Part shown: positions 54,381-55,906 of the stretch, piece by piece
Layout of the letters: the number at the start of each line of letters is the position of its first letter
How positions within the stretch are numbered: position 1 is the stretch's first letter
Assembly (NCBI GenBank): GCA_947475715.1
Contig: CANJNY010000018.1
Location: forward strand, 1-55,906
Source of the DNA: Prolixibacteraceae bacterium
Lineage (GTDB): Bacteria > Bacteroidota > Bacteroidia > Bacteroidales > Prolixibacteraceae
Reading direction: 5' to 3'
Length of the DNA: 55,906 bases
The notes under the pieces: model-generated
Told to the model about the DNA's origin: nothing
What the model saw: the letters and a program-made list of their open reading frames with translations, nothing else
Database searches by the model: none
Program-made: the position numbers and the translations under genes

Positions 54381-54420
54381 AAAACAGGTAAAATTGCCTA
54401 AAGCAATTCTACCTGTTTTT
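54381..54420. terminator. Bidirectional terminator between tyrS and the PfkB kinase gene
   Basis: Arms at 54381-54397 and 54403-54420 pair over 16 of 17 positions around a 5-nt loop, with T runs on both sides. The loop contains the kinase stop codon (54398-54400), and one arm encodes the kinase's last six residues KQVELL, so the coding sequence and the terminator are superimposed. Confidence 0.88.
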
Positions 54421-55381
54421 TTATTGCCACCCATCGGCTTTCGTCCAATTCAGCACCTACGACCTGAATTACTTCTCCTGCCAATAATGCACCGATCATT
54501 CCGCATTTTTCGAGGTGATGGCCGGCAGCTAATCCGGAAAGGAATCCAGCCGCAAAGAAGTCCCCTGCCCCGGTGGTATCCACCACGATTGCCCCCTTGA
54601 TTGTAGGGATATGCCATTTCTGAGAACCTTGCTGAACAAAAGCGCCCTCCTTCCCAACCTTAACTACTGCAATATCGCAACGACCTGCCAGATTTTCAAG
54701 CGCCGCTTCAGGCACTAAGCCGGTAAACGATTTTGCCTCCTCCTCATTTGCAAAAACAATATCGATATAATTATCCACAAGTTCATTGAGTATATCCATA
54801 TTTGCCTCTACAACATTGAAGCTTGCCAGATCAAGGGCGATTGCCAAACCGGCAGCCTTTGCGGCTGAAGCTGCAGCCATAATCAAAGCATGGTTAAATA
54901 CGAGATATCCTTCGATAAAGAACAAGTCATAGCCTGAAAAAAGATCTTCCGTTATGTCATCCGGGCCCATCTCGACAGCTGCCCCCAGATAAGTAGCAAA
55001 AGTCCGTTCACCGTCAGGACTCACAAATCCGACTGCACGGCCAGTTGGAAGTTCAATTTCCTTTAGGACGACGCCAATACCCCGTTTAACCATCTCGTTC
55101 TTAAATAAGCCACCAAGGTCATCAGAACCAATTGAACCCACATATCCGCATTCAGCACCCATTGCAGCGATTCCATTAATGGCATTTGCCACCGACCCCC
55201 CGGTAGCAATCTTAATATTAAGATGTGAAATCTCCTTTTGAATTCTGGCCGAGAGATCCCCATCGACGAGGGTCATCCCCCCTTTTGGAAGATCTAGACC
55301 ATTGATTATCTGATCATCTTCAGGCAGCACCAGGATGTCCATCAGTGCATTTCCGATTCCCAATATCTTCAAATTTCCCAT
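54398..55381 (-). CDS. PfkB-family carbohydrate/adenosine kinase
   Basis: 327-residue ribokinase-fold kinase. It has the N-terminal NALMDILV, the PfkB signature region GGSVANAINGIAAMGAECGYVG, and DTTGAGDFFAAGFL with the catalytic Asp and anion hole. The closest known group by layout is the adenosine kinase/ribokinase branch common in Bacteroidota; substrate preference (adenosine or a sugar) cannot be fixed by eye. Its last six codons form half of the terminator shared with tyrS. An exact promoter box lies 28-35 nt upstream. Confidence 0.88.
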   Translation of the reverse strand: MGNLKILGIGNALMDILVLPEDDQIINGLDLPKGGMTLVDGDLSARIQKEISHLNIKIATGGSVANAINGIAAMGAECGYVGSIGSDDLGGLFKNEMVKRGIGVVLKEIELPTGRAVGFVSPDGERTFATYLGAAVEMGPDDITEDLFSGYDLFFIEGYLVFNHALIMAAASAAKAAGLAIALDLASFNVVEANMDILNELVDNYIDIVFANEEEAKSFTGLVPEAALENLAGRCDIAVVKVGKEGAFVQQGSQKWHIPTIKGAIVVDTTGAGDFFAAGFLSGLAAGHHLEKCGMIGALLAGEVIQVVGAELDESRWVAIKKQVELL

Positions 55382-55408
55382 TTTGTCAATTTTTTTCGAA
55401 TAATTTTA

Positions 55409-55416
55409 CAAATATA
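55409..55416 (-). promoter_or_regulatory. -7 box for the PfkB kinase gene
   Basis: The minus strand reads TATATTTG, an exact TAnnTTTG match, 28 nt before the ATG. Confidence 0.55.
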
Positions 55417-55439
55417 TTTTAGATTTCTGAAAAACTTAC

Positions 55440-55447
55440 TACTTTTG
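55440..55447 (+). promoter_or_regulatory. -7 box for the tRNA-Asn region
   Basis: TACTTTTG, an exact TAnnTTTG match, is 45 nt before the tRNA-like relic at 55492 and 151 nt before tRNA-Asn. If it is the tRNA promoter, the relic lies inside the primary transcript. Confidence 0.5.
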
Positions 55448-55491
55448 CAACGCTTTGAAAGAAATACATGACAAAGCAAAAGAATAAAAAT

Positions 55492-55556
55492 TCCTTAGTA
55501 GCTTCCCGAAAATTCGGGATTAGAGCGGTCCCGAAAGTTCGGGATTAATCTGTAGG
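55492..55556 (+). pseudogene. tRNA-Asn relic with two palindrome-replaced arms
   Basis: Aligned to the intact tRNA-Asn at 55598, this copy keeps the 5' acceptor/linker CCTTAGTAGCT, the TTAGAGCGG D-stem side and TTAATCTGTAGG. The D-loop segment CAGTTGG is replaced by the palindrome TCCCGAAAATTCGGGA (55504-55519), and the anticodon segment CGGACTG by TCCCGAAAGTTCGGGA (55529-55544). The T-arm and 3' acceptor are missing. It cannot make a tRNA. In each case 7 nt ending just before a TTA are replaced by 16 nt. Confidence 0.8.
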
Positions 55557-55597
55557 AATTTTCAAATAAAAGTTCTTATTAGATTTAAAAATATTAT

Positions 55598-55671
55598 TCC
55601 TTAGTAGCTCAGTTGGTTAGAGCGGCGGACTGTTAATCCGTAGGTCGTAGGTTCAAGTCCTACCTGAGGAG
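55598..55671 (+). tRNA. tRNA-Asn (anticodon GTT)
   Basis: A complete 74-nt cloverleaf. The acceptor stem TCCTTAG/CTGAGGA has one G-U pair, followed by discriminator G at 55671. The D-arm is GCTC/GAGC, the anticodon stem GCGGA/TCCGT with loop CTGTTAA (anticodon GTT at 55632-55634), and the T-arm GTAGG-TTCAAGT-CCTAC. CCA is not encoded. It is flanked on both sides by altered copies of itself and followed by a terminator. Confidence 0.96.
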
Positions 55672-55675
55672 CTTT

Positions 55676-55710
55676 AAAGGCTGAAATCGAAAGATTTTGG
55701 CCTTTTCTGT
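55676..55710 (+). terminator. Intrinsic terminator of tRNA-Asn
   Basis: A 13-bp stem (55676-55688 with 55693-55705, including two G-U pairs) with a GAAA tetraloop, followed by TCTGTTTTT. An identical hairpin occurs 118 bp later (55794-55823) inside the second tandem unit. Confidence 0.88.
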
Positions 55711-55712
55711 TT

Positions 55713-55788
55713 TTAGGCAGTTGGTTAGAGTGGTCCCGAAACTTCGGGATTAATCCGTAGGTCGTATCCCGAACTCTCGGGATGGGGA
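55713..55788 (+). pseudogene. Chimeric tRNA-Asn relic, palindromes in anticodon and T arms (copy 1)
   Basis: It keeps CAGTTGGTTAGAG of the D-arm, TTAATCCGTAGGTCGTA of the anticodon 3' side and variable region, and a near-copy of the acceptor 3' strand. The anticodon 5' strand is replaced by TCCCGAAACTTCGGGA (55734-55749), and the whole T-arm (15 nt) by TCCCGAACTCTCGGGA (55767-55782). The 5' acceptor strand is also lost. It lacks anticodon GTT pairing and a TTC loop, so it is not a working tRNA. Confidence 0.8.
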
Positions 55789-55906
55789 GCTTTAAAGGCT
55801 GAAATCGAAAGATTTTGGCCTTTTCTGTTTTTAGGCAGTTGGTTAGAGTGGTCCCGAAACTTCGGGATTAATCCGTAGGTCGTATCCCGAACTCTCGGGA
55901 TGAGGA
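55789..55906 (+). repeat. 118-bp tandem unit, copy 2 (runs to window end)
   Basis: Second head-to-tail copy of the unit at 55671-55788, ending exactly at the last base of the window, so the array may continue beyond it. Confidence 0.9.
55831..55906 (+). pseudogene. Chimeric tRNA-Asn relic (copy 2)
   Basis: Same structure as the relic at 55713-55788, with palindromes at 55852-55867 (anticodon site) and 55885-55900 (T-arm site). It ends TGAGGA, identical to the true tRNA 3' acceptor strand, whereas copy 1 ends TGGGGA. Confidence 0.8.

Follow-up and report, generated by a model that had tools for sequence, protein, structure and literature searches.

The end of a Prolixibacteraceae contig raises the question of why an intact tRNA-Asn gene should be accompanied by altered copies of itself in which arms of the tRNA are exchanged for a short palindrome, and what could have generated such an arrangement. 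The window, that is the whole stretch of 55,906 nucleotides analysed here, is the entire contig C18 of an assembly of 5.77 Mb in 315 contigs, and because it is the whole contig, the array is truncated at 55906. The only tRNA that ARAGORN predicts for the window is tRNA-Asn(GTT) at 55598-55672, and a search of 55300-55906 with the Rfam tRNA model (E<=1) left the altered copies unmatched, the sole match being the intact gene. The array and its neighbour comprise the following features.

54398..55381, minus strand: PfkB-family kinase gene, divergent neighbour of the tRNA-Asn cluster (open reading frame list; Pfam PF00294, E 2.4e-41)
55492..55556, plus strand: 5' partial tRNA-Asn copy (from the sequence; the same relic occurs in congeners)
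55504..55519, no strand assigned: palindrome TCCCGAAAATTCGGGA replacing the D-loop CAGTTGG (from the sequence)
55529..55544, no strand assigned: palindrome TCCCGAAAGTTCGGGA replacing the anticodon-arm CGGACTG (from the sequence; borders identical in genomes G597 and G551)
55598..55672, plus strand: intact tRNA-Asn (GTT) (ARAGORN; Rfam RF00005, 72.8 bits)
55673..55717, plus strand: terminator-like hairpin and T-rich stretch 3' of the tRNA, repeated at 55791-55835
55718..55790, plus strand: 3' partial tRNA-Asn copy no. 1, with palindromes at 55734-55749 (anticodon arm) and 55767-55782 (T-arm)
55836..55906, plus strand: 3' partial tRNA-Asn copy no. 2, with palindromes at 55852-55867 and 55885-55900, ending at the contig end

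The upstream copy (55492-55556) retains the 5' acceptor strand, the D-stem and the 3' half of the anticodon arm and lacks the T-arm and the 3' acceptor strand; by eye, both of its replaced segments are 7 nt long, with TTA after each. The downstream copies begin in the D-loop and, again by eye, share with the upstream copy the replaced 7-nt segment of the anticodon arm and have, in addition, 15 nt of the T-arm replaced. The sequence-only reading of this DNA had described one intact tRNA-Asn with one upstream and two downstream arm-replaced copies, with 7-nt replacements before a TTA and one of 15 nt, and this anatomy is confirmed by ARAGORN and by inspection. Its contention that the palindromes are not the outcome of random decay is borne out as well: palindromes with no more than one mismatch occur at six positions (55504, 55529, 55734, 55767, 55852 and 55885), and window-wide matches with up to three mismatches number 12 against 2.89 expected, a count reached in 0 of 100 shuffles. 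The two downstream units, with a period of 118 bp, are identical at 115 of 116 positions, and the first is identical at 114 of 119 positions to a unit in the separate assembly of a congener (L021); because of this near-identical unit, an assembly artefact is disfavoured. The PfkB-like N-terminus is, by eye, also legible at L015, L020, L023, L040 and L046.

Within the same genome, four of the five exact palindromes sit in this array, and the pattern TCCCGAN{0,16}TCGGGA occurs at 21 places (two for the reversed pattern), six of them in the array and two in tRNA-Met copies on contig C70. Inspection of 32 distinct tRNAs of this genome revealed broken copies only for Asn and one Met, both with these hairpins, and the tRNAs for Asp, Gly and Gln are instead accompanied by complete tandem neighbours. 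Among 61 relatives, the exact palindrome is found at 51 places in 14 genomes. A taste of the palindrome for tRNA arms, as had been proposed from the window, holds in part across this genome and the 61 relatives searched, since partial copies of tRNA-Asn or tRNA-Ala contain 16 of the 36 places inspected among those 51, while the other 20 are outside tRNA copies. The flanks of such non-tRNA palindromes pair better than permuted flanks at 26 hand-picked sites (-9.1 vs -7.1, sd 0.53, 0 of 500 permutations), and palindromes situated in the loops of further inverted repeats suggest that they derive from another source.

A search for the D-loop replacement pattern AGCT-TCCCGA-N{1,14}-TCGGGA-NTAGAG in a collection of 84,980 species returned 48 stretches, from isolates as well as MAGs, which by title comprise 41 from Bacteroidota, six from Neomarinimicrobiota or Marinimicrobia and one from Ignavibacteria. 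In 42 of the 48 (including L040, which has N bases), the 400 bp downstream include an intact tRNA; none was found within this distance at L052, L055, L073, L077, L079 and L081. By isotype, the 47 distinct 5' copies from this search and the tRNA-Gly and tRNA-Met searches below correspond to Gly (22), Ala (10), Met (7), Asn (3), Phe (2) and one each of Lys, Val and Trp. Because this main search fixed the palindrome, three further searches were done in which the insert was left free. With any insert of 12-36 nt in the D-loop of tRNA-Gly, 395 Bacteroidia genomes gave 12 matches in 10 genomes (five for the reversed control); nine of them, from seven genomes, carry a TCCCG-like hairpin (imperfect in one case) and precede an intact tRNA-Gly, and the remaining three have no tRNA nearby. 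The corresponding search with the D-loop of tRNA-Met gave two matches, both in the window's own genome and both hairpins. Replacement of the 5' arm of the tRNA-Asn anticodon by any 8-38 nt, searched in 324 genomes of the order, gave four matches in three genomes (reversed control 1), all four being TCCCGA palindromes with identical borders. Pooled, hairpins make up 15 of 15 tRNA-linked matches, which upholds the claim that palindromes recur at tRNA arms, here across many genomes. The Gly pattern was found in 0 of 46 genomes of the family of G200, and a search of phage DNA gave ordinary phage tRNAs only among the matches listed (20 of 1106 records). Outside the searched AGCT context, tRNA-Leu-like 5' fragments with a TCCCGA hairpin for the D-loop are seen in L136 (1699), L054 (1424) and L083 (2876).

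The bases preceding AGCT, which were free in the main search, match the neighbouring tRNA fully in 44 of 47 5' copies (5 mismatches in 376 nt), as compared with a mean of 1.09 mismatches per 8 nt and 37% identical for same-isotype tRNAs at other loci; this near-identity to the adjoining tRNA implies either a recent origin of the copies or some process that keeps them in line with it. With three copies of a different stem excluded, a Watson-Crick pair occupies the seventh stem position in 36 of 44 copies and a wobble pair in three, and other palindromes occupy the same positions, such as TCCGTCAGCTGACGGA in L040 and TCCGCCAGCGGGCGGA in L044. As the anticodon arm is replaced and the D-loop is not in G013 and in one copy of G008, replacements seem to arrive one at a time. 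An intact 17-nt anticodon arm is found in none of the 47 5' copies and none of 33 3' copies, counts to be read with the caveat that many 3' copies start after the arm, that some copies end before it and that the 47 5' copies were found via their replaced D-loop. The 9-nt core around the anticodon survives in 3 of 80 copies, and 11 of the 33 3' copies retain a complete T-arm; the copies at L185 and L190 keep both the D- and the T-arm and have lost the anticodon arm alone. Among more elaborate forms, L138 (G115) contains two tandem 5' copies of tRNA-Gly(TCC) whose D-loop carries a hairpin nested in a hairpin, and L069 and L070 (Marinimicrobia) contain near full-length tRNA-Gly copies with all three arms converted to different TCCCGA hairpins.

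In relatives a small GIY-YIG gene stands between such copies; it lies outside the window, where a profile search found no GIY-YIG ORF, and hence was missed by the sequence-only reading. At L167 this small ORF follows an intact tRNA-Asn and precedes a hairpin-armed 3' copy, and at L169 it lies just 5' of such a copy. The usual order in relatives is intact tRNA, terminator, GIY-YIG ORF, 3' tRNA copy and terminator copy, the latter often present after the 3' copy, with 5' copies upstream at many loci. Direct repeats of at least 40 bp span the ORF at L015, L021, L055, L167, L175, L178, L188, L190 and L191, and at L021 (G005) the window's downstream unit stands on both sides of it. By profile, whose E-values are approximate because it was built from regular-expression matches, GIY-YIG ORFs were detected in 11 of the 48 D-loop-pattern stretches (L046, L047, L050, L051, L055, L061, L065, L066, L069, L076 and L080) and not found in the other 37. 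The catalytic domain expected of a homing endonuclease is evident, with Pfam GIY-YIG PF01541 above cut-off in six of six proteins tried; in NCBIfam, three of three proteins matched group I intron endonucleases only, all below cut-off.

A sample independent of the palindrome was drawn by a PF01541 search of 45 Bacteroidia genomes, giving 80 stretches from 29 genomes among the matches listed; it leaves out the window's own genome and holds 79 distinct small GIY-YIG domains. Among the matches listed, 23 of these 79 are preceded within 450 bp by an intact tRNA on the same strand, these tRNAs representing 11 isotype-anticodon classes, where the rough chance is 0.3% per ORF (assuming 45 tRNAs and 3.6 Mb per genome), and in 13 of the 23 linked ORFs a 3' copy of the linked tRNA follows the stop codon. 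The absence of an upstream tRNA for 56 of the 79, among the matches listed, counts against treating gene and copies as one module, and so do the plain, hairpin-free 3' copies at L246, L248 and L268 (3 of 13 sampled). A hairpin that is absent from the intact tRNA is found inside the copy in 8 of the 13 sampled cases (among the matches listed) and in 14 of 20 copies from other loci; randomly drawn 75-nt stretches contain one in 6.5% of cases, which gives P 3e-7 for the sampled 8 of 13. In 13 genomes partly chosen for relics, a tRNA lies within the stretch at 14 of 24 small and 0 of 6 large GIY-YIG loci. Across the 33 3' copies, the tRNA supplies the stop codon plus 4 nt in just 7, which also counts against the module. 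At L199 (G000:C150, ~1438-1740), a small GIY-YIG ORF is situated inside an IS91-like transposase gene (named by eye) and is flanked by GCCCCGTTACAAAT / ATTTGTAACGGGGC plus CCTG on each side, like an insertion of ~300 bp. The idea taken from this locus, that the palindromes are solo ends of GIY-YIG elements, was rejected, as the longest exact inverted repeats around most ORFs are shorter than 13 bp and unlike TCCCGA.

At the tRNA-Asn next to the pfkB-like gene, the ORF is found downstream in L015 (G013) and L046, and for L021 the Asn ORF lies on another contig of G005. No ORF is present in the 620 nt downstream of tRNA-Asn at L010/L023 (G008) and L040, loci that retain a single scarred 3' copy, nor within 620 nt downstream at L067 (Marinilabilia), whose locus is a putative ortholog. 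The ORF is thus present (L015, L021, L046) or absent (L010/L023, L040, L067) at the same locus in relatives, as is expected of a homing endonuclease gene. In the assembled contigs of the window's own genome, no Asn-type enzyme was found, only three remote GIY-YIG proteins (29-35% identity), and the contig breaks at the array; the enzyme would therefore have been lost from the window or be unassembled or beyond the contig end. On contigs C41, C92, C96, C142 and C182 of the window's own genome (G000), several tRNAs lie within ~160 bp of a contig end, as if repeats around tRNAs had broken the assembly.

A tree of GIY-YIG domains (114 rows, 74 columns) is poorly resolved (14 starred branches among 111 inner ones). 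One side of it holds most of the linked enzymes (46 of 60 rows are tRNA-linked), and 52 of 54 rows on the other side are unlinked (support for the split 79); other subfamilies may explain this nearly all-unlinked side. Over the 46 linked rows, tRNA isotype requires 18 changes as compared with a shuffled mean of 31.1, with 0 of 300 shuffles as low, and host family requires 37 as compared with 38.4. Since the tree tracks isotype and not host family, the enzymes keep to their isotype while moving between hosts. A gene beside its presumed target and specific for it, as in homing systems, is thus indicated by the linkage of 23 of 79 domains (among the matches listed) together with the isotype clustering. 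Solved relatives of the L021 protein among the matches listed are the UPF0213 chains 1zg2 and 1ywl (E 0.017-0.02) and SLX1 (E 0.74); the likeness of UPF0213/YhbQ-like small GIY-YIG proteins and of SLX1 to it is weak, and the unlinked clade of small GIY-YIG proteins in the tree may be the true UPF0213/YhbQ counterpart.

With a probability of about 0.6, the altered copies are the scars of an isotype-specific, homing-type module around a small free-standing GIY-YIG endonuclease gene, similar to SegB. They resemble the traces of a selfish tRNA-homing gene because a small nuclease gene, each with one kind of tRNA, often adjoins them. In the accessible part of the source, the GIY-YIG enzyme SegB of phage T6 is reported to cut tRNA-containing DNA and to drive the tandem amplification of tRNA-Tyr together with segB by homologous recombination, and segB is located near tRNAs in many phages (PMC13096335). 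In a similar manner, the enzyme would cut its own tRNA gene at or near the anticodon arm, and recombination repair would yield tandem duplicates of the 5' or the 3' flank that include the leader or the terminator (and the ORF), as for SegB. Short perfect hairpins in place of arms would protect the additional copies from cutting, abolish their function and interrupt them too much for recombination with the working gene; arm breakage may bring gains through loss of the target, of tRNA folding and of the homology needed to loop out the ORF, and copies with broken arms would be the ones that survive. Against this reading, 37 of the 48 D-loop-pattern stretches gave no GIY-YIG ORF by profile, the own genome yielded no Asn-type enzyme and the intact tRNA retains the supposed target, and neither the TCC...GGA character of the palindromes nor the presence of some of them outside tRNAs is explained by it. 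A wider proposal, which is tentative and somewhat doubtful, envisages a widespread natural drive family of the Bacteroidota-Marinimicrobia group, with one lineage per isotype, that targets an essential gene at its anticodon arm by cut-and-copy and leaves hairpin-armed immune copies; in its boldest form, the enzyme would attack the tRNA too and the copies would act as decoy or antidote RNA. Homing of this kind would account for a recurrent oddity beside tRNA genes in a large bacterial group and provide a chromosomal bacterial counterpart of the phage SegB system, and the scars by isotype, arm and lineage would form a readable record of a nuclease living on essential, highly conserved genes. It is directly testable because of the isotype specificity, as each enzyme predicts its own tRNA target.

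That the palindromes are instead tiny mobile elements jumping into hairpin loops, with tRNA copies as tolerant sites and the GIY-YIG gene as a separate guest of tRNAs, is unlikely, even though it fits the 20 of 36 inspected places outside tRNAs, the different families at the same borders (TCCGTCAGCTGACGGA in L040) and the single replacements in G013 and G008, which suggest gain one at a time. It also draws on the better pairing of non-tRNA flanks than of permuted ones, but the 26 sites of that comparison were hand-picked, and it leaves unexplained the isotype-tracking enzyme tree, the loss of the anticodon arm in every copy and the hairpins inside the copy 3' of the ORF. A RAYT-type motor for such mobility, suggested from the window, fails: Y1 transposase genes exist (seven matches in the own genome), but among 20 with flanks read the TCCCGA...TCGGGA hairpin adjoins just one (L158), and several others are each accompanied by a different palindrome family, so that RAYT was rejected as a general cause.

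An alternative for which we see little likelihood holds that selection maintains the copies as working RNAs, leaders or decoys, composed of tRNA halves and hairpins. The RNA product entertained earlier survives in weakened form, in that most units fold better than versions with shuffled spacers, but pairing of the acceptor strand with the unit's own spacer is stronger than with foreign 5' ends in only 28 of 42. Full agreement of the first bases with the own neighbour (44 of 47 5' copies) favours such RNAs but is explicable by recency or gene conversion; the Watson-Crick seventh pair (36 of 44) also favours them, but wobble pairs occur in just 3 of 44, as though the hairpins had arisen perfect and had not been selected as RNA for long, and the copies come and go among congeners. 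Ordinary tandem tRNA duplication followed by decay, with chance hairpins or assembly error, is highly improbable: intact tandem tRNAs do occur in the own genome (Asp, Gly) and the array is cut by the contig end, but this explanation is contradicted by the hairpins at 15 of 15 tRNA-linked matches of the searches with an unconstrained insert, by the same unit in the assembly of a congener and by the isolates, not MAGs alone, among the 48 stretches.

Like the modules described here, SegB of T-even phages is, in the part of the literature accessible, a free-standing GIY-YIG enzyme adjoining tRNA genes of many isotypes; unlike SegB, the present genes reside on bacterial chromosomes, encode ~70-110 aa, form one lineage per isotype and are accompanied by direct repeats of the tRNA 3' part around the ORF and by hairpin-replaced arms. 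A tblastn search of one such protein against 50,697 phage records (E 0.01) gave no match. The term "hairpin" does not occur in the available text of the SegB paper (PMC13096335), nor do "Bacteroid", "stand-alone" and "palindrom" in that of the 2006 GIY-YIG survey (PMC1564403), by term search. A literature search covering few subscription journals gave, among the matches listed, no account of such copies or of a chromosomal tRNA-linked GIY-YIG module.

Integrative elements at tRNA genes also restore the tRNA and leave an incomplete copy of it behind; they use a tyrosine integrase, and their copies are without hairpins. Type III toxin-antitoxin systems consist of a repeat RNA, a terminator and an RNase, a resemblance to the module limited to layout. 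Mitochondrial hairpin elements (DHE, RHE) are likewise small mobile hairpins of compact genomes, but are organellar, and no tie to a tRNA isotype-specific nuclease was found in the accessible part of their literature. REP elements with RAYT are alike in their short palindromes, which here are 16-20 bp and stand in place of tRNA arms. Y1 (RAYT-like) transposase genes of the genus with nearby short palindromes of their own, for example GGTGCAGCGCACC or AGCCACGAAGTGGTTG, were observed at L147, L150, L154, L155, L156, L163 and other loci, and at L024 (G008:C334) two dispersed repeats of one family carry TCCCGAAG hairpins at corresponding sites.
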